36,872 nt of DNA from Acidobacteriota bacterium. Lineage in GTDB: Bacteria; Acidobacteriota; UBA6911. The position numbers were made by a program, and so were the translations under genes. Numbering within the stretch: the stretch's first letter is position 1; each line of letters starts with the position of its first letter. The notes under the pieces were generated by a model. It had not been told where the DNA came from. It saw only the letters and a list, made by a program, of their open reading frames with translations, and made no database searches. Below are positions 3,001-32,978 of this stretch, piece by piece. The stretch spans positions 1 through 36,872 of the forward strand of contig JAISUT010000027.1 in assembly GCA_031271905.1 (NCBI GenBank), read 5' to 3'.

Positions 3001-5030
3001 TCGTCGAGGCCATCCCCCCCGCCGTCCGCCGCGCGGCGCAGAATGAGGCGTTCCGAACGAAGCACCCCTCCGGACAACGCCAAGGCGGCGTCCAGCGCGC
3101 CCAGCGGCTCGTTATCGATGGCGAGGCCCTCCCCGCGCAGGGACGCCTTGCCTTCGAGGGCGCCGGGGTCGCGCAACGGCCCCTGGAGCGTCGCCGAGGC
3201 GTCGAGGACGCCGTCCAAGGGAAGTCGCAGGCCGAAGAGGTCGTTCGCCAGAAGCGCCGGGAGGCGCTCGCCGCGCGCCTCCGCGGACAGCGCCGCCTCC
3301 CCTTGGCTGAAATCGAGGCTGCCCCGGACCGAGGCGGCGGCGTTTTGCGGCAACCCGAAGTCGCCGTCGAACCCCAGCGCGGCGCCGCGCCAAATGAAAT
3401 TTGATCTCGCGCCAAGGCCCCGCCGCCCCTTGAACGCCAGGTTGGGGACGTCGAGTTGCGCGACCGCCTCCACCTGCGCCAAGGGGCCCGACGCCTGGAT
3501 GCGGAACTGCGCCGGGCCGTGCAGTTCGTCCAGGGCGGCGGGCGGTTCCGCCGCCCCGAAAAACCGCGCGAATCGCGCTATCGCCTGGCCGATGTCCTCG
3601 CCGGCGCCCGAGACGTCCCCCTCGATCTCGCGGAAATCGCGGAACGCGACCTTTCCCGTCACCGCGACGCCGAGCCCGTCCAGCCCCCGCGCGTCGATCT
3701 CCAGCCGGTTCGCCTCCAAGCGCGCGTCGAGCGCCCCGCCGACCGGCAGGACTCCGGGCCCGGGCTCGACGCGCATGGCTTCGATGTCCAGATGCGCCGC
3801 CGCCGCCACCTTGCCCAGGGAGCCCCCACCCTGCCAGCGCATGTCGATTCTCCCGTCGGCGCGGCTGGCGACATCCAGCGGCGCGCCGGCGAGCTTTGCC
3901 ACCGACCGCAGGTTGAGCCTTTTGAATTCCACCGACACCGAATTGGGCGACGACGCCCCCCCCTGCGCCCCGGACGCGGCGAGGTCGGCTTTCCCCGCGA
4001 CGGCGCCGTCGGGGGCGGAAAGGGCGATTTCCGGGAAGACCCACCGCCCGGAATCGCGCCGCCAGCCCCCCGTCAGCGCCAACGCCAGCGATTCCTGCCT
4101 CCAATCGCGGACGCTGAGACCGGAGACGGTCATATGCGCGGAGACGTCGACGCGGTCGAAATCCCCCGCCGCGGCGACCTCGCCGGACAGGTCGCCGCGC
4201 AAAGGCGCATTCATGGCGGCGACGCCGGCGGCGACGCCCAGGTCGATGGCGGGACGGACGGTCACGTCAAAGGAGGGGGCGTCGAAGCTGACTTTTCCGG
4301 CGATGTCGGCGGCGACGCCGCTGGCCGCGACGCGCGCCGAGGAGATCGTGAACTCGCCTTTCCCAAGGTCGAGCACGCCGACCAGCCGCAAGGCCTGTAT
4401 CGGGACGCCGAACGCCTCGCGCCCGACGCCGTATGCGACGAGCGGATCGGCCGGGGGGGTTTGGGCGAATTCGACATGGTGCGTCCGCGTCCGCGCATCG
4501 CCCGCGACCGACAGGCGCCAGGACGGGATGGTCGCGGACAGGTCGCGCCGCAGGTCTTCGTAGCGGAAGGCGCCGCCTTCCGCCACGGCGTGGACGACGA
4601 GGAAGTCGGGGATCCTCCCCGGCGACGTCTTCGCGGATCCGCCCCTGGGCAGGTTGTCCCGCCCCTCGGCATCGACGAGGTAGGCGACCTCAGGCCGCTC
4701 CAACGCGAGGTCTTCCACCGTCCACCTGCCGCGAAGCGCGTCCCGGACGCCGATGTCGATGAAAAGGCGCCCGGCGCGGAGAAACGGCCGATCCGGCGCG
4801 GCGACGGAGCGGACGGACAGGTCGCGCACGTCCACCGTGCCGTCGAGATAACCGATGTCGGTTATAAGCGCCTCGACGCGCACCCCCTGGGTGCGTTCCA
4901 AACGGCGGCACAGCCGGTCGAAGGCGAACTGCCTCACGGGGGGGGCGTGGAGCAGGCACACGACGAGGACGACGAGGGCGGCGATTGCCGCCAAGACCAA
5001 GGTTGTCCGTCGAACCCACCGCTTTTTCAT
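1..5030 (-). CDS. TamB-like translocation/assembly protein running into a POTRA domain (C-terminus beyond window)
   Basis: One minus-strand frame is open from the ATG at 5030 to the left edge, at least 1676 codons; I read through the forward-stop-rich stretches and found no break. Residues 1-30 form an N-terminal signal anchor (MKKRWVRRTTLVLAAIAALV). The body is long, beta-rich and AsmA/TamB-like. A typical TamB (DUF490) C-terminal region ends near residue 1568; visible pieces include GGEIILNNREYYIDRG, DILSLLVTGKT and YRFEFRHDIRFGGG. TamB proteins span the periplasm and help deliver lipids or outer-membrane proteins, with TamA. Unusually the frame continues through an Ala/Pro linker of about 40 residues into a POTRA-like segment from about residue 1610 (FEIGAIRFTGG, then LYRQNQLYEQEHRQEADIRF), as found in TamA/BamA. 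It could therefore be a TamB-TamA fusion. What follows the POTRA is outside the window. It lies 68 bp downstream of the PGPGW gene. Confidence 0.88.
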   Translation of the reverse strand, partial: MKKRWVRRTTLVLAAIAALVVLVVCLLHAPPVRQFAFDRLCRRLERTQGVRVEALITDIGYLDGTVDVRDLSVRSVAAPDRPFLRAGRLFIDIGVRDALRGRWTVEDLALERPEVAYLVDAEGRDNLPRGGSAKTSPGRIPDFLVVHAVAEGGAFRYEDLRRDLSATIPSWRLSVAGDARTRTHHVEFAQTPPADPLVAYGVGREAFGVPIQALRLVGVLDLGKGEFTISSARVAASGVAADIAGKVSFDAPSFDVTVRPAIDLGVAAGVAAMNAPLRGDLSGEVAAAGDFDRVDVSAHMTVSGLSVRDWRQESLALALTGGWRRDSGRWVFPEIALSAPDGAVAGKADLAASGAQGGASSPNSVSVEFKRLNLRSVAKLAGAPLDVASRADGRIDMRWQGGGSLGKVAAAAHLDIEAMRVEPGPGVLPVGGALDARLEANRLEIDARGLDGLGVAVTGKVAFRDFREIEGDVSGAGEDIGQAIARFARFFGAAEPPAALDELHGPAQFRIQASGPLAQVEAVAQLDVPNLAFKGRRGLGARSNFIWRGAALGFDGDFGLPQNAAASVRGSLDFSQGEAALSAEARGERLPALLANDLFGLRLPLDGVLDASATLQGPLRDPGALEGKASLRGEGLAIDNEPLGALDAALALSGGVLRSERLILRRAADGGGDGLDDAVEAQLSYALVGADAGRYAVRAQGRGLRLRNPGILPAGSPLPGKVDLEMSGEGTLDEPRLRARVHADEVRVVRAGKEVPLGAVSVEAGLSDGGVSLAASAPRLDLSGTGRIGLSPPFPFSGELQARKSDLGVLDLRLRDGQPLGGALDAVVRATGELGDLQGAEVVADVQGLMLQARDPDTGQERRARLFSPASLRYRDGVLDIPVPALLVMRSSQVELSGGFPLAGTGAGETLRLRGRVNIADALPFVKPQAGPSRSPSEEGLSIDGVLNLDLGVKVRGKVFGGDGELSLERGAVQIPGSPLPFTDIAVNAGVEDGALVVRSATAKWGVGDIALSGEFPFSALPQPVPGLVARDGPVRFNLTVAGLTPEMTGMFPEGLTGRVSLHAEGSAAKADPRALRAEVAFDELRFKVGTLEFRQQAPVRVDVADGVATVSSFTVVGPETDLRLSGSATLFPEGGGAVAAPIGLRLEGHLDAALLTFGDPDLKAAGRLDLLAALDGSLYEPVLSGYAETGNGRLALSDPRIVADDLRIRLGLSPDRITVERLEGILNGGSLRGEGSLGYRRGILNDIDLRATFQDFFLDAPEGLKSASSGTISIKSEEDAIVVGGNVRVTESSYRESIEVGGQVMNYLKSQQVVIPDSAPNPLLGRIRYNIGVRTTTPLLVQNNVARVEAMATNLRIVGTYYEPSVTGRIALTEGGEIILNNREYYIDRGVVTFANQTRVEPELDIQAQTKVAEYEITLQLAGNPDRLTTSFSSEPSLPERDILSLLVTGKTTSETQGQEMQVMQTQALSLLAGQAGEQLTGEARKALHLSTFRIDPGQIASESDPGARLTIGEDVTRDLSLAYSMNLVNGGDQIWVAQYAVTRRLTTQATKQQDNTYRFEFRHDIRFGGGGAEARSASRAKPRPEGAAVGDAPPSGAVAAATPRRGGATKFEIGAIRFTGGSDSPQQALPERALLDRLGAHPGDSYELSKIKNGLYRQNQLYEQEHRQEADIRF

Positions 5031-25456: not shown

Positions 25457-25903
25457 TCAATCCGGCAAGATCAGCGGCAGCCTCTTGCCGTCTTTGCGGA
25501 ACGCCTGCATCTCGTTGCGCTGAGGGTTGCAGATCAGGCTGGCGCCATCGGGGAACATCCGCCGGTGCGTCTCCCTGTCGGGCCCGGACATGAACACCGG
25601 CAATTTGCAGGGGTGGGTGTGGACGCTCCCTACGAGCGACACCTGCATCTGCGCGAAGACCTGCATGGCGTAGAACCAGGTGCCGCCGCCGATCACCACA
25701 TGCGCGCCGCCGCCGGAGATCGCCAGCAGGGGGAGGGCGAACATGACCTTTATCCCGTCCTTGGCGATCCTGCCGCCCAAGGCGCACAACTGCTCGTTGA
25801 CGTTGTGCGGCGTCTCGCCGCACCCGATCCCGAAGTAGGCGGAGAACACTTTGTAGGCGCACTCGCTCACGACCACGGGTTGCAATGCGCGCGACTTCCT
25901 CAT
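25457..25903 (-). CDS. JAMM/JAB-domain metallopeptidase (candidate Ubl processing and deconjugating enzyme)
   Basis: A 148-residue single-domain protein. The JAMM zinc signature is His95-Thr-His97-Pro followed by Ser106-Gly-Pro-Asp109 (HTHPCKLPVFMSGPD), one residue longer between His97 and Asp than in eukaryotic RPN11. A catalytic Glu should lie in the first 40 residues (Glu30 or Glu37 are candidates). JAB peptidases in bacterial ubiquitin-like operons trim the Ubl tail and remove Ubl from targets. The ATG at 25903 overlaps the E2 stop by 4 bp (ATGA), indicating translational coupling. No membrane segment is seen. A longer open frame that runs upstream antisense to nothing real simply reads through E2 in another frame. 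Confidence 0.88.
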   Translation of the reverse strand: MRKSRALQPVVVSECAYKVFSAYFGIGCGETPHNVNEQLCALGGRIAKDGIKVMFALPLLAISGGGAHVVIGGGTWFYAMQVFAQMQVSLVGSVHTHPCKLPVFMSGPDRETHRRMFPDGASLICNPQRNEMQAFRKDGKRLPLILPD

Positions 25904-26436
25904 GCCCCCTCCCCCGCCGCCTCGCCGCGGCCATCGCCCAGGAGCTCGCCGATGCTCGCGACCCCATGCGGACGCTCCTTGGCGCACCGGGAGCAGAATC
26001 CAGCCACATCCCTGTCCGCAGGCGATTTGAAATTGAACGTCCCGCCGTCCAGCAGGATCAGCCGGATGACGCGGCACGTCAGGCTGCGCAGGTCTTCGGC
26101 GGGGTTCCAATCGCCTATGCACACGTTGCCGCCGGCAAAGACGTTGACGTGGGCGACCGGCCGCGTGGAGAACGCCACCACCGGAGGCGACTTCCTGTAC
26201 GGCCACCCTATGGGGAGCCGGATGGTGAAGACATGCGGCCCCTGCGCATACTCGGGCGCGCCGCCATCGGCGGACTTGACGAACGTCGGGGTGGAGACCG
26301 CCACGGTGTAAGCGCGCAAATCGGCGGACGACAAGGCTACCTCCACGCGCCCGGGCCGGTTGAGCGACATCATCTTCACATGTTCGGCCGCCAGCCTGTG
26401 GCGGACGCGCAAATCGGCGGCTATGGGGATTTTCAT
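25900..26436 (-). CDS. E2-like ubiquitin-conjugating (UBC-fold) protein
   Basis: A 178-residue protein with the UBC core. WPYRKSPPVVAFSTRP (residues 78-93) corresponds to the 'YPxxPP' strand. HVNVFAGGNVCIGDWNP (96-112) contains the presumed catalytic Cys106 and a conserved Trp. A helix then leads to SPADRDVAGFC, matching the 'nPaD' segment of E2s. The eukaryotic HPN triad is replaced by H-V-N. A C-terminal CSRC pair and Gly/Glu-rich tail are extra. E2 enzymes accept the Ubl from E1 as a thioester and transfer it to targets. It begins 6 bp after the E1 stop codon, its ribosome-binding site (AGGTGA) overlapping that stop, and overlaps the JAB gene. Confidence 0.9.
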   Translation of the reverse strand: MKIPIAADLRVRHRLAAEHVKMMSLNRPGRVEVALSSADLRAYTVAVSTPTFVKSADGGAPEYAQGPHVFTIRLPIGWPYRKSPPVVAFSTRPVAHVNVFAGGNVCIGDWNPAEDLRSLTCRVIRLILLDGGTFNFKSPADRDVAGFCSRCAKERPHGVASIGELLGDGRGEAAGEGA

Positions 26437-26442
26437 GCCGGT

Positions 26443-27576
26443 TCACCTCGTCGAGACGGTTTCGGGGGAGTCGCCCCCGAGGACGAAAGCCACCAGACCG
26501 TCGCCGTCTTCGGCGAGCAGCCTGTCCAAGGCGCGGAACCCCAGTTCGTAAAGGGTGAACCCCTGCAAACGTTCCTGCGACGCCGTGAACGTGGACAGCA
26601 TCTCGTGGGGCTGGTCGGGCGCCGCACCGGGAGGGCAGACGGGGCAGCGCATGTCGCTTTCGCGCAGGCGCCGCACCGGCCGGTTCACGGGATAGGGATC
26701 GCCGCAACGCAGGCACCGGCCGCTGACGACGAAGTCGCTCTGCGCGAACAGCGCCGTGCCGCGCCTCCCCTCCAGCAGCCGTCCCAGCGTGGTGTCGCGC
26801 ACCGAGCCGGGAAGATCGACCTCCCGCACGCCGCCGGCGGTCATGTGGTGCGGGCAACCGGCGTCGCGGGTTATCGGGAAGCGGAACAGCTCGTCGCCCG
26901 TGTCATAGTAGCGGACGTCCCCGCCCGGTCTCTCGAGGCGCTTGACCAGCTCCATGACCAGCCGGTTCGCGCTGATCGCGGTCGGGAACTGCACCGACGG
27001 GGTGTGCCCGCCGGCCACGTCCTTCAGGTAGCGGACGCCGCATCCGCCCGAGCGCGTCTCCACCGGGGCGTCGAACCGGTGGCAGCACAGGCAGGGGTCG
27101 CCGTCGGCCGCGCCGTTGGCGACGACCTCGACGCTGCCGTTGAACCCCTCGGTGGCGGCGCGGTAGAGCGGCACCCGGCTTCCCGCCATCGCCTCCCCCA
27201 CCGCCAGCACCGCCTCGGTGTTGTCCAGCGCGCAAACGACCGCGTCAAACCGCTCGTAGAAGCGCGCCCCGAGGTCGCGCACGTCCGCGTTGACTGCGAC
27301 GACCTCGCACTCCGGGGCGTGGCGCAGGATGTAGTCGCCGAAAGCGTCCGTCTTGAGGCGCCCGACGTCCCCCGGCGACAGGACGCCGAACCCCCGGAGG
27401 CAGTTATGGGGCTCCACCCGGTCGCAATCCACCAAGGTCACGCGCCGGAAGCCGGCGGGGAGCATCGCGGCCACCGTCGCGCCGCCTATCGCGCCGCAGC
27501 CGAGGATCGCGACGCGGCACCCCCGCGTCTTCGCCAGATCCGCGTATCTGCCCAGCTCGAAATCCACCGTCGCCAT
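26443..27576 (-). CDS. E1-like ThiF-family Ubl-activating enzyme with zinc-binding cysteines
   Basis: A 377-residue protein. The Rossmann nucleotide loop GCGAIGG is at 26-32, DCD at 50-52 with N58 and R61 (the adenylation ring of ThiF/MoeB/E1), and ALDN at 116-119. A Cys-Leu-Cys-Cys cluster (162-165) and CPHH (241-244) are likely zinc ligands. Cys179 in RSGGCGVRYLKD is the best candidate for a catalytic thioester cysteine. A C-terminal extension carries a zinc-ribbon-like CLRC (288-291) and CPVC (311-314), then a helical segment. It should adenylate the C-terminal Gly of the neighbouring Ubl and pass it to the E2. AGGAGGT gives a strong start at 27576. Confidence 0.92.
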   Translation of the reverse strand: MATVDFELGRYADLAKTRGCRVAILGCGAIGGATVAAMLPAGFRRVTLVDCDRVEPHNCLRGFGVLSPGDVGRLKTDAFGDYILRHAPECEVVAVNADVRDLGARFYERFDAVVCALDNTEAVLAVGEAMAGSRVPLYRAATEGFNGSVEVVANGAADGDPCLCCHRFDAPVETRSGGCGVRYLKDVAGGHTPSVQFPTAISANRLVMELVKRLERPGGDVRYYDTGDELFRFPITRDAGCPHHMTAGGVREVDLPGSVRDTTLGRLLEGRRGTALFAQSDFVVSGRCLRCGDPYPVNRPVRRLRESDMRCPVCPPGAAPDQPHEMLSTFTASQERLQGFTLYELGFRALDRLLAEDGDGLVAFVLGGDSPETVSTR

Positions 27577-27620: not shown

Positions 27621-27911
27621 TTACGGGAGGGTCGTTTCGCACCTCGCGCCGCCGGCGTTCACCGTGTCCGGCAACGCGACCAGCTCTATCTCGACGCAAG
27701 CGGCGTCGAACAGGTCGCGCATCCGTTGCGCCCCGTCGAACAAGCGGCTGCTTTTCATGTCGGCGAGCAACACGCCGTGGGGCGCCTTCCAAGGCGCCAC
27801 CGCCGTGAACAGGCGTTGCAGCTCGGAGACGGTCGCGTCCTCGTCAACTTGGAACTCCACCCGGCTCATCGTAGGATCTTTGATCGTAACCTTCATCGTC
27901 CTGACGTTCAT
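27621..27911 (-). CDS. Ubiquitin-like beta-grasp protein with a GG plus 8-residue tail
   Basis: A 96-residue protein with a beta-grasp pattern: MKVTIKDPTMSRVEFQV as a first beta-hairpin, ATVSELQRLFTAV as the helix, then strands GVLLAD, RLF and CVEIELVAL. The chain continues TVNAGG (Gly87-Gly88) and ends ARCETTLP, so a protease must remove eight residues to expose a diglycine. The adjacent JAB is the obvious candidate. The start at 27911 is chosen because GGAGG is 8 nt upstream; an in-frame ATG at 27896 gives a shorter form. It lies directly before E1 and E2. Primary-sequence similarity to ubiquitin is low; the call rests on fold pattern, size, tail and context. Confidence 0.82.
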   Translation of the reverse strand: MNVRTMKVTIKDPTMSRVEFQVDEDATVSELQRLFTAVAPWKAPHGVLLADMKSSRLFDGAQRMRDLFDAACVEIELVALPDTVNAGGARCETTLP

Positions 27912-27954
27912 CTCCATGCCCTCCTGCGAATGGTTGTCGTTTGCGGCGACCGCC

Positions 27955-28443
27955 TCAGCGCGTCGCCAACAGCCGCGAGGCCAGCATCATCAACAGCGCG
28001 GACGCCAGCAACGCGATCTCCACGAGCCTCCCCGCCAGCGCCCTGAAGGCGAACCGGTGGACGCCGGGGAGGCTGTTCCAGAAACGCCGCCGGCACCCGT
28101 CCTCTTCAGCCCGCCGCCCCTCGTCCGACGGGCGGGTGCGCGGAGCGGGAGTCCGGGTGACGGTCACACGCCTCGGCCTGAGCGGGACGCTCGCCCGCAC
28201 GCCATCGACGACGACCGGCTCGCGCGCCATCAGTTGCGCCGCGACGCTGAAATGCACCCTGTCCCCGCCGTTGCAGATCGGGCAACGGCCGTCCCAGTCG
28301 TCCGCGAACAGCGTGGCCCTGCACCCCGCGCACACGCAGATGCGGCATCCCTCCGTCAGCGGGACGCCCCACAGCGCGTCGACGGGGTTGGACTCCAGGA
28401 ATGCGCCGTCGCGGCCGGAGAGTTCGTATTCCGTCACCATCAT
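27955..28443 (-). CDS. Membrane-anchored RING-like zinc-finger protein (candidate E3)
   Basis: A 162-residue protein. A dense cysteine cluster, Cys33-x2-Cys36-x-Cys38-x2-Cys41, is followed by Trp50 and CPIC (54-57). The spacing resembles a small RING or treble-clef zinc finger ('W...CPxC'). A basic, Pro/Arg-rich linker (85-120) leads to a C-terminal membrane helix at about 140-159 (LVEIALLASALLMMLASRLL). The finger should face the cytosol next to E1, E2 and Ubl, so a membrane E3 role is a reasonable inference, not a demonstrated one. A plain zinc ribbon is the alternative. GGAGGGG precedes tandem ATGs at 28443/28440. The Ubl gene starts 43 bp downstream. Confidence 0.75.
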   Translation of the reverse strand: MMVTEYELSGRDGAFLESNPVDALWGVPLTEGCRICVCAGCRATLFADDWDGRCPICNGGDRVHFSVAAQLMAREPVVVDGVRASVPLRPRRVTVTRTPAPRTRPSDEGRRAEEDGCRRRFWNSLPGVHRFAFRALAGRLVEIALLASALLMMLASRLLATR

Positions 28444-28583: not shown

Positions 28584-29498
28584 TCAATCGATGGGAGGCA
28601 GGACGTAGATGGTTTCGACGACCGGCCGGGGCTCCTCCTCCGGCTCGTCCCGCCCACGGGATGGGCGGTACAGGCCCCACCACGCGGAGGCGCCAATCTC
28701 GCGACGAGGCCGTCCGCCGCCCGAAGCGCCGATCATCGCGAACAGCGGCATCGCCAAGAACGCGACGACGAGGGCGGACACCGCCGCCCCGGAAAACAGG
28801 GCGAGCAGGAACAGGAGGAAGTCCGTCGCCAGCTTCGCCGCGCAGAACGCCCTCGTATCGCCGAGAGCGCCCCGTCTGAGGAGCATCTTCAGGCAACAGG
28901 CGACGAGCAGTACGCCGAACACGCCGACGGCGGCGAGCAGGTCGCCGGGCGCGCAGGCGTCCGGCGGCGTCCGGCGCGTATACAACAACGCCGCGAAAGG
29001 CACCAGGAGGGCGGCGGCGCGGGCGAGCACCGGCTCGACGGCGAGCAGGGATTTGACGAGCGCGCGCCGCGACGGCATGATGTCGGCGTACAACCTTCCG
29101 ACCAGGCCGAGCCGCTCCTCCGCCATATCCGCCGCGCCCGCCAACGAAAGCACAGACGGGCAGAACACCGCCGCCATGACGAAGGAGAACGCCTCCACGA
29201 CCGACCAAGGCGGCAACCGCCACCCGGCGGGGAGGAGGTCGAAGCAAGAACGGAATCCATCGAAGGCGGTCGCGACCTGCGACCCGGGCGGCGAACAGAG
29301 GCAGGCGACGAGCGCCGCGCCCCGCCCGGTCAGTTGCGCGACCAAGGCGAGCGCGCCTCCCGCGAGGAAGGCGGCGCAGAGGGAACGGAGGAGCGGGCGC
29401 GCCCTCCACCCGCCCGACACGGCGACCGCGCCATGCAGCGCGACGCCGGCAAAGAACCAGAACGCCACGTAATTCCCGTTGACCGCCACCGCCGCCAT
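28584..29498 (-). CDS. Multi-pass integral membrane protein of the Ubl/CHAT locus
   Basis: A 304-residue protein with about seven predicted membrane helices (roughly residues 9-28, 38-56, 99-121, 155-173, 185-205, 222-240, 239-258). A cytosolic C-terminal tail is rich in Arg, Pro and Glu (RGRDEPEEEPRP). I recognise no family. The ATG at 29498 is preferred because GGGAGGGTG lies 6 nt upstream; a longer frame to 29567 lacks a ribosome-binding site. It lies between the CHAT protease and the RING-like gene. Two of its neighbours are also membrane-anchored, so it may form a pore, receptor or platform; this is inference from position only. Confidence 0.78.
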   Translation of the reverse strand: MAAVAVNGNYVAFWFFAGVALHGAVAVSGGWRARPLLRSLCAAFLAGGALALVAQLTGRGAALVACLCSPPGSQVATAFDGFRSCFDLLPAGWRLPPWSVVEAFSFVMAAVFCPSVLSLAGAADMAEERLGLVGRLYADIMPSRRALVKSLLAVEPVLARAAALLVPFAALLYTRRTPPDACAPGDLLAAVGVFGVLLVACCLKMLLRRGALGDTRAFCAAKLATDFLLFLLALFSGAAVSALVVAFLAMPLFAMIGASGGGRPRREIGASAWWGLYRPSRGRDEPEEEPRPVVETIYVLPPID

Positions 29499-29594
29499 CG
29501 GCACCCTCCCCGCTTTCAAGATGCGCCCCACACACAGGCATCCGAAAAACGGGGGGATTCTCGCCATGTCCGCGGCGACGGGCGCGGCAAGGCG

Positions 29595-31016
29595 CTAACC
29601 GCCCCGCCCGCCCCGCCCGACATCCCGGATCACGGAGACCGCAAGGCCTGCGGCGACGGCGAGCATGCCGATGATCCAATTCCCGGCGTCGCGCCCCGTG
29701 GCGTCCACCCACGCCTGGGGTCGGAACAGCACGACGAGCAGCACGGCCAACAGGAGCGCCGCCGGCGCCAAGGCATAGTCCAAGGCGGTCTGCCACCATG
29801 CGGGTTTCCCCATGCCCTCCATGGCATGGGCGATGGCAAGCCGCTCCTCCCCCCCGATCCGCACGTTTTTCGGGACGTCGAGCCCCAGCAGGTCTTCGAG
29901 GGACTGCCCCGGCGAGACGCCCTCGGCCGCGTAGACCACGCAGGAGTACGCGGCGGGGAGGTTGTCCGCCGCAGTCAGCATCCTGGCGGCGTAGATGCAA
30001 TCCCCTATGGCATGGAACCCGCCTGGCGCCGCACCGCCGTTTTCGCCGGCATTGTCGAACAGGGCGCACCAAAGGTGGTAGAAGCACTCGCTCCCCCGGA
30101 CGTCCTCCCCTCCGACGCCGGCGGGGAACGTCGGGACCTCGCCGATGTTGCCGACAAACAGCCTGGTGCCGCGCCGGATGACGGCGCTGGCGAGGCTGCC
30201 CACCTGGCCGCAACAGGTGAGGCAGGTCTCGCCGCTATGGCAGCAATCGGCAAAGACGACCGCCGGAGTCCTCGACAACCGGGGGTCGCCGAAGACCGAA
30301 CCATGGCCGCCGCCGCAAACGTCCCTTGCGGCGATCAAAGGCGGCATGGCCTCCCGCCCGTCTGGATGCGGCTGGGCGCGGTGTATCTTGAACGTGTCCT
30401 TCGCGAGCCCGTTGTCCCCGTATCCGGCTATATGTACGATGCCGCTGGAGGCGAATTCCGCCGCGCACCGGTCGCCGGCGGCGTTCTCCAAGGGGATGAC
30501 GACCGGCGCGACCTGGGCGGGGTCGGCGGGAGTCCCGACCTCCCGTGCGAACCGGCACGCCCCCTCCATCGTCTCGTCGTAGAACAGGGCGTACCCGGCC
30601 GTCGGCGGGGCGCCCTGCGGGACGCCGCCCTCGATCCTGCGGAGCACGCAATAGGCGTCGTCGAGCCGGATGCTCCTGAGCCGGTCCCGTTTGACGACGA
30701 CCGCCTCCCACGGCAGCTGGCTGAGTCCGACGTCCCTGACGATCAGGTCGAGCGGGCGCCTGCGCCCCATGTCCGCATCGCGCCCCAATTCGTCCTTTAT
30801 CTCGTCGGGCATCAACTCCGACAAGCGGCGGCAGGCGTTGTGGAATTTCTTTTTGTCGCCGTGGACGGCGGAGGAGGAGAACAACTGCGCCAACTCTTGC
30901 ACCTGGTCGTCGGAGACCGGTTTCGGGATCGGCGGCTTCGAGTCCATCGACCATTGCAACTGCACGTTGTGATGGTCGACGCGGGCGTGCGCTATGCTTA
31001 TCCGCCTGGTCTTCAT
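29595..31016 (-). CDS. CHAT/caspase-like protease with two C-terminal membrane helices
   Basis: A 473-residue protein. After a charged N-terminal region, LIVRDVGLSQLPWEAVVV (91-108) is the typical CHAT N-terminal strand with 'LPWE'. GIVHIAGYGDNG (192-203) supplies the catalytic His195. AVVFADCCHSGE (252-263) supplies the catalytic cysteine, most likely Cys259 by analogy with 'DxCHSG' of caspases and metacaspases. Helices at about 414-431 and 446-463 tether the chain to the membrane with the protease inside. CHAT proteases act as effectors in bacterial conflict and death systems and often sit near sigma and anti-sigma genes. It starts 10 bp after the zinc-finger gene, and its own ribosome-binding site is weak. 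Confidence 0.88.
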   Translation of the reverse strand: MKTRRISIAHARVDHHNVQLQWSMDSKPPIPKPVSDDQVQELAQLFSSSAVHGDKKKFHNACRRLSELMPDEIKDELGRDADMGRRRPLDLIVRDVGLSQLPWEAVVVKRDRLRSIRLDDAYCVLRRIEGGVPQGAPPTAGYALFYDETMEGACRFAREVGTPADPAQVAPVVIPLENAAGDRCAAEFASSGIVHIAGYGDNGLAKDTFKIHRAQPHPDGREAMPPLIAARDVCGGGHGSVFGDPRLSRTPAVVFADCCHSGETCLTCCGQVGSLASAVIRRGTRLFVGNIGEVPTFPAGVGGEDVRGSECFYHLWCALFDNAGENGGAAPGGFHAIGDCIYAARMLTAADNLPAAYSCVVYAAEGVSPGQSLEDLLGLDVPKNVRIGGEERLAIAHAMEGMGKPAWWQTALDYALAPAALLLAVLLVVLFRPQAWVDATGRDAGNWIIGMLAVAAGLAVSVIRDVGRGGRGG

Positions 31017-31026
31017 CTGCGAGAAC

Positions 31027-31809
31027 CTATTCCGCCCACTTGCGCAACGCGGCAATCGGGCATAGCTCCAACACCCTGAAGGAACCCACGCCGGGCAGGC
31101 GGATGGACACCAGCGTCACCGCGTGGGGGTTGAACTCCAACGTGAGTTTCGCCGCCGTGACGGCGCTCCAGGCGACGGCGACCTTGCCGGCGTCCTCGTA
31201 GGCGGTGACTTCCGGCACTTCCCCCGCCCAAGCGCCGTCGCGGGCGATTTCAAGCACCCCCTTCGCGTCGGTGTAGCGCACGGCGGCCTTCACGCCGGCG
31301 ACGACCTCGCCCTCGCAGGAGTAGGCGATGTTTTCGCCCGCCCCGGCGTGAACCGGGGCGCAGACGGGAGGCCGTCCGAGGAACACCGAGGCGAAATCGG
31401 CGAAAACGCCGGTGGCGGCGGCGACGGCGTCTTCAAACCGCCGGGACTTGCCTTCGACGAGGGCATCGGCCCCGGGATCGCCGAACCCCAGGAACTCCAC
31501 ATACCCCCGGCAGCGTTCGCACCCTTTCAAATGCCGGAGCGCGAAATAGTCCTTCACGATGTCGGGGGCGCCGTACACCAGCCGGTGCACCTTGCCCTCA
31601 TATTCGCAGGGCGGGTCGCCTACAACGGCATCGTCCGCGCCGGACGGCTCGACCGGCTGCGTCAAGCCCAGGTAGATCAGTTCGCAACGCGGGCAACCGG
31701 AAAGATGCCGCTCCAGTCGCGCCGCCTGCTCGCCGGGCGTCAGCAACAGCAAGAAATCCTGCATGGTCAGGTGGTTTCCACGTTCCTCGTGCGGTTCTGG
31801 CAAAGTCAT
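31027..31809 (-). CDS. Double HxxxCxxC zinc-finger protein (anti-sigma-like)
   Basis: A 260-residue soluble protein. Two similar motifs, RHLSGCPRC (34-42) and RHLKGCERC (92-100), are HxxxCxxC signatures of zf-HC2-type anti-sigma zinc fingers. Such domains bind ECF sigma factors. The C-terminal two-thirds is beta-rich without a membrane helix, unlike classical anti-sigma factors, and may sense a ligand. The ATG at 31809 has AAAGGAC upstream. It follows the sigma-like gene by 75 bp and precedes the CHAT gene by 10 bp. Its pairing with the sigma-like protein is inferred from motif and gene order. Confidence 0.75.
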   Translation of the reverse strand: MTLPEPHEERGNHLTMQDFLLLLTPGEQAARLERHLSGCPRCELIYLGLTQPVEPSGADDAVVGDPPCEYEGKVHRLVYGAPDIVKDYFALRHLKGCERCRGYVEFLGFGDPGADALVEGKSRRFEDAVAAATGVFADFASVFLGRPPVCAPVHAGAGENIAYSCEGEVVAGVKAAVRYTDAKGVLEIARDGAWAGEVPEVTAYEDAGKVAVAWSAVTAAKLTLEFNPHAVTLVSIRLPGVGSFRVLELCPIAALRKWAE

Positions 31810-31884
31810 GGCGACAAGTCCTTTCATTGGCAAGTTGCAGAAGACGGCGTCTTCCGTCCACGCATCCGGAAATGCGCGATATTC

Positions 31885-32898
31885 TCACCGTCTCAACCGC
31901 CCCCGCAAGCGCTCGTAGGCCTCTTCCCGCGCTTTCTCTTGCGACAGGGCTTCGTCATCCGCTTCGAAAGCCTTGAAGAGCGGCCTGGCGATGACATAGA
32001 GCGCGCGGCTCACCTGCCCTTTTGTTTTACCCGCATACCGGCCCTCATCCCGGAGCCGGTCGAGGATGCGGTCGAGATTGAGCCCTTCCAAGAAGTTCAG
32101 CTCAAACATTGCAAAGGCGAACTCGGCGCGCGCCTCATCCCCCTCCCACCAATCTTTGCAGCCCTTTTTCCACCAAGCCTTGAACCGCGCCAGGATGGCG
32201 CGCCTCTCATCCGGGGTGCGCCCCCCGCCAAACCCCGTCATCGGCGCGCACACGGGGGTCCCATCCCGTTCGCAGAGCGCAAGCGCCTTTTCCAGCTCCC
32301 CGTCTTCGAACGGCAGGGACAAGAACGGCAACGGCCGGACCATGGCGACGCCATCGACGTGCTCCTGGCGCCTAAACGGGTATTTCACGAACTTGCCGGC
32401 GACGTCCCGCGTCGCCCTCTCCAACAGTGCTTCCCGGTAAAACTCCTCCCATGCCGGGCGGAATGGGGCGTCCCGGTCTTCCATGCCGTGAACCGACGGA
32501 GCCGCGCCGTCGGCAAGCCCCGCCTTCCCCAAGAACGCCTCCCGGACTGCGGCTTTGACGTCATGGACATCCTTCTTGGCATAGTCGAAGACATGGAAGA
32601 TGAAACTTTGCAGCGTCTGCCGGTGGCGGTCGTATTTGTGTATGCTCCTGGCGAGGCGGGTGATGGTGAACGCTTTCGCCGCCAAGAACTCCACCTCGTC
32701 AGCGATGCCGCGACCCCTGGTCTTGTCGCCAAAGGCGTACCAGAGCAACTTGAACCGCGCCCAAGTCGCGTTGGGGTTGAGCATGAGGCATAGGACGGCG
32801 TACTTGACCTCTTCCGCTTCGAAGCCGGCGGAGGGCTGCCTTCCGCTTGGATAGACCTGCTCCGGCGACAGATAATCGACGACTCCCTTGGGTGGCAT
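31885..32898 (-). CDS. Divergent ECF sigma-factor-like protein
   Basis: A 337-residue protein. Residues about 45-125 read like a degenerate sigma region 2 (WARFKLLWYAFGDKTRG, EVEFLAAKAF, then SIHKYDRHRQTLQSFIFHVF, resembling 'yD...gsf..Wl'). Residues about 262-320 read like region 4 (FLEGLNLDRILDRLRDEG, then GKTKGQVSRALYVIARPLF, a helix-turn-helix-like stretch). The roughly 130-residue insertion between them is unusual. The neighbouring zf-HC2-like gene supports a sigma/anti-sigma pair. The start at 32898 has AAAGG upstream; an ATG at 32916 lacks one. It is the first gene of the Ubl/CHAT locus and is divergent from the antiporter across 198 bp containing tandem repeats. The call is moderate; it could be another DNA-binding regulator. 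Confidence 0.6.
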   Translation of the reverse strand: MPPKGVVDYLSPEQVYPSGRQPSAGFEAEEVKYAVLCLMLNPNATWARFKLLWYAFGDKTRGRGIADEVEFLAAKAFTITRLARSIHKYDRHRQTLQSFIFHVFDYAKKDVHDVKAAVREAFLGKAGLADGAAPSVHGMEDRDAPFRPAWEEFYREALLERATRDVAGKFVKYPFRRQEHVDGVAMVRPLPFLSLPFEDGELEKALALCERDGTPVCAPMTGFGGGRTPDERRAILARFKAWWKKGCKDWWEGDEARAEFAFAMFELNFLEGLNLDRILDRLRDEGRYAGKTKGQVSRALYVIARPLFKAFEADDEALSQEKAREEAYERLRGRLRR

Positions 32899-32978
32899 TT
32901 CCTCTCGCCTTTCCATGTGCGTGTGACGCGCCCCTCATTCTCACCAAATGCCGCGGCGGAATCAAGCTCCCCGTCCCC

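Follow-up and report, generated by a model that had tools for sequence, protein, structure and literature searches.

A tail-anchored single-zinc finger protein, possibly RING-derived, in an E1-E2-JAB-Ubl operon of an Acidobacteriota bacterium

Introduction

Complete bacterial E1/E2/RING/JAB/Ubl systems with caspase-like effectors have already been described (PMC7159879, citing Burroughs 2011), and as early as 2006 a proposal was made that the zinc-finger proteins accompanying such operons are E3-like adaptors (PMC1779556). The RING partners of the Prok-RING_1 (PF14446) and Prok-RING_2 (PF14445) families sit beside E1/E2, are often membrane-anchored and have eight zinc ligands. In archaea, Caldiarchaeum subterraneum encodes E1, E2 and the RING protein srfp in a compact operon, and mutation of the PY pair in loop 4 of the E2 or of I30 in the RING abolished ubiquitylation in the archaeal cascade, while W58A impaired it (PMC5654768). 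Finger domains with a single zinc can also be E3s: examples are the SP-RINGs, in which the distal zinc remains, and the UBR4 hemiRING, in which it is the proximal zinc (PMC10873205).

Here we analyse a window of 36,872 nucleotides from an Acidobacteriota bacterium (contig JAISUT010000027.1), in which a tail-anchored protein with one predicted zinc site, P0002, is encoded beside E1, E2, Ubl and JAB genes. As in the FtsH-ternary Ubl tri-ligase systems (Kaur et al. 2020, PMC7159879), these genes stand together with a candidate caspase-like effector; unlike in those systems, Ubl and E2 come from separate genes, the place of the RING is taken by a one-zinc finger, and neither MoxR, vWA nor FtsH was found among the operon genes and the 10 other window proteins scanned, the contig ending with the window. 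P0002 shares its operon slot and the site-2 register with Prok-RING_1 and Prok-RING_2, whose members match or nearly match their models, whereas P0002 lacks site 1 and matches neither. Its operon E2 carries the same type of RING-binding motif in loops 4 and 7 as that of C. subterraneum, but srfp is of the RING-H2 type and its function as an E3 is proven. The Siz/PIAS SP-RING and the UBR4 hemiRING are one-zinc fingers related to RINGs, as that of P0002 may be, the former also sharing the retained distal site; they differ in being eukaryotic and proven E3s. The tail-anchored half-RING that we propose is a variant of the zinc-finger/RING partners known from bacterial Ubl operons.

Results

P0002 is a real coding gene. 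Its codon-position GC (0.67/0.56/0.91) is the same as that of its neighbours, and a strong Shine-Dalgarno-like GGGGAGG lies immediately 5' of its ATG. The plus-strand reading of the same interval was rejected, as it is not P0002 and its long ORFs are without this codon-position pattern. An earlier note had proposed P0002 as a candidate E3, a membrane-anchored RING-like protein with a zinc finger on the cytosolic face next to E1, E2 and Ubl genes. The anchor is borne out by a hydrophobic segment at the C terminus, the only one in a Kyte-Doolittle scan (Table 1), and the operon map likewise places the predicted finger beside these genes and JAB. Arginines precede the transmembrane (TM) segment (CRRRFWNSL...RALAGR); this suggests a tail anchor of N-in orientation, which would leave the finger on the cytosolic side. 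The finger core has six cysteines (C33RIC36VC38AGC41RATLFADDW50DGRC54PIC57).

Table 1. Features of P0002 and of the surrounding operon in the window.
Feature	Coordinates	Strand	Basis
P0002, 162 aa, tail-anchored one-zinc finger protein (the finding)	27955..28443	minus	
P0002 predicted zinc-finger core, residues 33-57 (C33, C36, C38, C41, C54, C57 and W50)	28273..28347	minus	
P0002 C-terminal TM segment, residues 135-161	27961..28041	minus	Kyte-Doolittle scan
Putative Ubl, 98 aa, internal GG then 8-residue tail (AGG-ARCETTLP)	27621..27917	minus	Rad60-SLD 17 bits, below the 23.8 cut-off
E1-like ThiF adenylyltransferase, C-terminal CxxC...CxxC	26443..27576	minus	ThiF E=9.6e-29
E2-like enzyme, catalytic C106, HVN, loop 4 PY, loop 7 WNPA	25900..26436	minus	UQ_con 28.1 bits, above cut-off
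JAB/JAMM-like peptidase, HTHP...SGPD motif, overlaps E2 stop	25457..25903	minus	Prok-JAB 15 bits, below the 25 cut-off; motif read directly
Multi-transmembrane protein, ~7 segments, no family	28584..29567	minus	
Possible caspase/CHAT-like protein (FADCCHSG), two C-terminal TM segments, start codon unsure, candidate effector	29595..31055	minus	Motif only
zf-HC2 protein and adjoining divergent-sigma-factor-like protein	31027..32916	minus	zf-HC2 28.8 bits, above cut-off; sigma-like protein, no Pfam match

On the minus strand the genes run in the order sigma-like (possible), zf-HC2, caspase/CHAT-like (possible), multi-TM, P0002, Ubl, E1, E2 and JAB, with short gaps (37 nt between P0002 and Ubl, 6 nt between E1 and E2) and an overlap of E2 and JAB. 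The linked E1, E2 with its catalytic Cys, JAB and Ubl with its GG make this a bacterial E1-E2-JAB-Ubl operon, where Ubl and JAB are recognised by their motifs, their place in the operon and their alignment with relatives, the Pfam scores of both being below threshold. The sigma-like and zf-HC2 genes look like a sigma/anti-sigma pair heading the operon. The caspase/CHAT-like protein has HIAGYG at the expected catalytic His-Gly (Tyr for His) and found no database match, a PDB sequence search included.

Close homologues of P0002 were found neither in 14 genomes of the family (one weak match apart) nor among plasmids, phages and viral contigs, and single-sequence searches of other genomes of the family, order and class returned none for its finger or for the operon E2. 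A PDB sequence search with P0002 gave chance ankyrin matches only. The weak match from the family genomes (L002/L019, E=0.006), which lies in a large ORF with no Ubl genes nearby, was dropped. In GTDB contigs a query with the single E2 sequence recovered no homologue and an alignment query did; the nearest E1 and E2 relatives are only ~25% identical.

We compared the 30 loci that carry both E1 and E2 (29 from Acidobacteriota, the window included, and one from a Burkholderiales MAG); the related operons were collected by searching the phylum with the E2 and with a profile of E2s, and by one GTDB scan. A membrane-anchored zinc-finger/RING protein adjoins E1/E2 in 20 of these, and soluble RINGs occur in four further loci (L086, L089, L090, L091). 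Since 24 of the 30 loci thus have a RING or zinc-finger neighbour, E3-type partners are the rule in this operon class, contrary to the statement in the earlier note that they are uncommon in bacterial Ubl operons; RING-type E3s together with E1, E2, JAB and Ubl are also reported from bacteria in PMC7159879. No such partner was found in L061, L062, L065, L087, L092 and L093, the operon of L092 being cut by a contig end. A P0002-type gene beside E1/E2 recurs more often than chance: in a conservative automatic count, membrane-anchored zinc-finger genes numbered 17 of 198 near E1/E2 and 4 of 276 elsewhere (Fisher p=0.0004), although the caller missed P0002 itself and one of the four genes elsewhere is itself a RING.

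The membrane-anchored partners are of three classes. A full eight-ligand RING with a TM2 domain is found in L049-L052, L054-L057 and L059 (the RING of L055 scores 42.9 bits with Prok-RING_1, cut-off 29.1), and a multi-TM protein with two RING-like fingers in L060, L063, L064 and L094 (the last with 22.1 bits for Prok-RING_2, just below 22.4). The third class, one CxxC...CxxC pair and one TM helix, comprises P0002, the Blastocatellia loci L016 (two copies), L017, L021 and L022, L012, and L028 of the Burkholderiales MAG. These relatives also sit beside E1/Ubl/E2, but their TM helix is N-terminal, whereas that of P0002 is C-terminal, and they have no detectable full-length sequence similarity to it. 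Trees placed the window loosely: its E1 branch was too long for placement, the one-zinc loci were the nearest rows to it in the E2 tree with weak support, and a single origin of the half-RINGs appeared in 12% of bootstraps.

The operon E2 aligns with yeast Ubc4 across the active site (loop-4 PY, HVN, C106, and WNPA against WSPA in Ubc4), and in this alignment its catalytic Cys and RING-binding loops (PY, NPA) are conserved. Among the E2s compared, WNPA is limited to those of the window and L012.

Canonical RINGs have eight Cys/His ligands in cross-brace order and bind two zincs. In RING register P0002 supplies ligands 3, 4, 7 and 8 only (C38, C41, C54, C57), with F46 at the position of ligand 5 and D49 at that of ligand 6. 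C33 and C36 sit in the loop before ligand 3, a single residue separates this CxxC pair from C38/C41, and there is no CxxC pair for ligands 1 and 2 at RING spacing. None of the Pfam RING models exceeded its cut-off (best zf-C3HC4_3, 13 bits against 27), and no Prok-RING model matched at E<=1. Judged by these features, P0002 is not a canonical two-zinc RING. The W...CPIC stretch described as RING-like in the earlier note does resemble the second half of a RING, but ligands 1, 2, 5 and 6 have no counterpart in register and the RING models all stay below their cut-offs; of the two arrangements that the note wished to distinguish, the pattern points to one zinc site and gives no support to a cross-brace. 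A single site does not refute an E3 role, as SP-RINGs and the UBR4 hemiRING bind one zinc and yet are active E3s (PMC10873205).

Nor is the finger likely to be just any zinc ribbon. As far as the alignment goes, it resembles single-zinc RING relatives in keeping the distal ligands and having lost the other site. In an unguided MAFFT alignment its GVPLTEG..CVCAGCRATLFADDW...DGRCPIC fell on the stretch from the RING loop to ligand 8, pairing GVPLTEG..C..CRATLFADDW..GRCPIC with RING PF...EE..C..CGT.HHADCW..NGGC. Against shuffles of the non-Cys residues this block reached P=0.004-0.0075 when the combined set or the TM2 set of RINGs was used, and P=0.13 for the double RINGs; the absolute score is negative and the register was picked post hoc. 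With hhalign, P0002 alone was not significant against RING, 13 of 150 shuffles matching its RING score. A three-row profile of one-zinc proteins scored about equally with RING (91.9) and with the E1 zinc ribbon (92.3), and an eight-row profile preferred RING (96.9% against 81.6%). By itself the P0002 sequence does not tell RING from zinc ribbon.

AlphaFold2 was run on residues 20-75 (pLDDT 83.6, pTM 0.67), giving the order strand, CxxC turn, strand, short helix. Because true RINGs made up 5 of the 8 rows of the input alignment, this fold may be imposed or borrowed. With these RING rows in the input, the VIA-align neighbours were mostly RING/U-box (TRIM28 Z 5.6, HEI10 5.2, Prp19 U-box 4.9), at Z values low enough to stem from a common arrangement; a true-RING control (L055) likewise had RINGs on top, at Z 5.1 and below. 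Foldseek found no match below E 0.4, its weak top matches including ribbon-bearing MCM, PolD and rubrerythrin.

Discussion

We propose, with a probability of roughly 0.45, that P0002 is a tail-anchored protein whose finger has one zinc and descends from a RING, and that it has an E3-like or docking role at the membrane. The finger would be a RING-derived treble clef with RING zinc site 2 only, site 1 having been lost. At the inner membrane P0002 would dock the operon's E2 once this is charged with Ubl, and would work there as an E3-like factor or as a positioning platform for Ubl conjugation, while the JAB would process the Ubl or take it off. The gene, its operon, the anchor seen in hydropathy, the pattern of cysteines, the loop motifs of the E2 and the recurrence of such genes in relatives are observations; that the finger descends from a RING, binds zinc, binds the E2 or has any activity as a ligase is inference. 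In canonical RINGs the first zinc loop bears a main E2 contact, and the lack of this loop in P0002 is the main weakness of the E3-like reading. It would be tempting to go further and see in P0002 a bacterial counterpart of the SP-RING, that is, a membrane-anchored single-zinc RING-derived E3 with an E1, E2, Ubl and JAB of its own; in its lineage full RINGs would have been reduced to half-RINGs, whereas the E2 would have retained its RING-binding loops. We regard this fuller version as rather doubtful.

The finger might instead be a membrane-anchored plain zinc ribbon that was never derived from a RING and serves as substrate adaptor or scaffold for E1, Ubl or the neighbouring membrane proteins. 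This is somewhat unlikely, though it has several points in its favour: there is one C-x2-C-x12-C-x2-C site, with the spacing of the Blastocatellia fingers RCEVCHxxDxFDxxTGxCxRCxH, the E1 ribbon profile did about as well as RING on the three-sequence set, and ribbon-bearing proteins are among the Foldseek matches. The preference of the eight-member profile for RING, the mainly RING/U-box neighbours of the AlphaFold2 model and the true RINGs that relatives hold at the same operon slot argue the other way. Full RINGs at this slot would also go unexplained if P0002 were an anchor that localises Ubl conjugation, or were itself the chief target of conjugation, and so linked the cascade to its multi-TM and caspase-like membrane neighbours with no catalytic help. 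Three consecutive genes (for P0002, the multi-TM protein and the caspase-like protein) do encode membrane proteins, and bacterial Ubl systems are tied to caspase-like effectors (PMC7159879). However, neither the caspase-like nor the zf-HC2 protein has a relative among 395 other genomes of the phylum; they are therefore not a fixed part of the system, and we consider a purely anchoring or substrate role improbable.

Least probable is a canonical two-zinc RING E3, its second site formed by C33, C36, D49 and H64. CRIC is like C1-x-I-C2 of RINGs, and six cysteines, H64 and acidic residues are at hand; but a cross-brace would need more than the one residue between the CxxC pairs, F and D occupy the places of ligands 5 and 6, and the Pfam RING score is 13 bits against a cut-off of 27.

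If a RING-derived half-finger is indeed what P0002 carries, bacteria, like eukaryotes, have evolved reduced RING relatives with one zinc, and an E3-like component may hold many bacterial Ubl cascades at the membrane. Full RINGs, double RINGs and half-RINGs at one operon position would also offer small testable sets with which to find out what portion of a RING is enough for an E2.

Several further features of the related loci may be recorded. E2 genes, several with an adjoining JAB, also occur in L013, L014, L015, L018, L025, L026 and L027 (mostly Blastocatellia), with no E1, Ubl or zinc protein within the stretch read. The genes for double-RING-like multi-TM proteins (L060 6520-7251, L063 6660-7472, L064 4364-5143, L094 6502-7200) all adjoin E1 and E2, and in L064 and L094 they overlap the end of E1 by 4 nt. 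In L028 the operon order is zinc protein-E1-Ubl-E2-JAB, and the TM-anchored one-zinc protein (3803-4567) has a long C-terminal region without recognised fold. The E1s of the window and of related loci carry a C-terminal CxxC...CxxC module, its four cysteines being invariant in the five E1s aligned.
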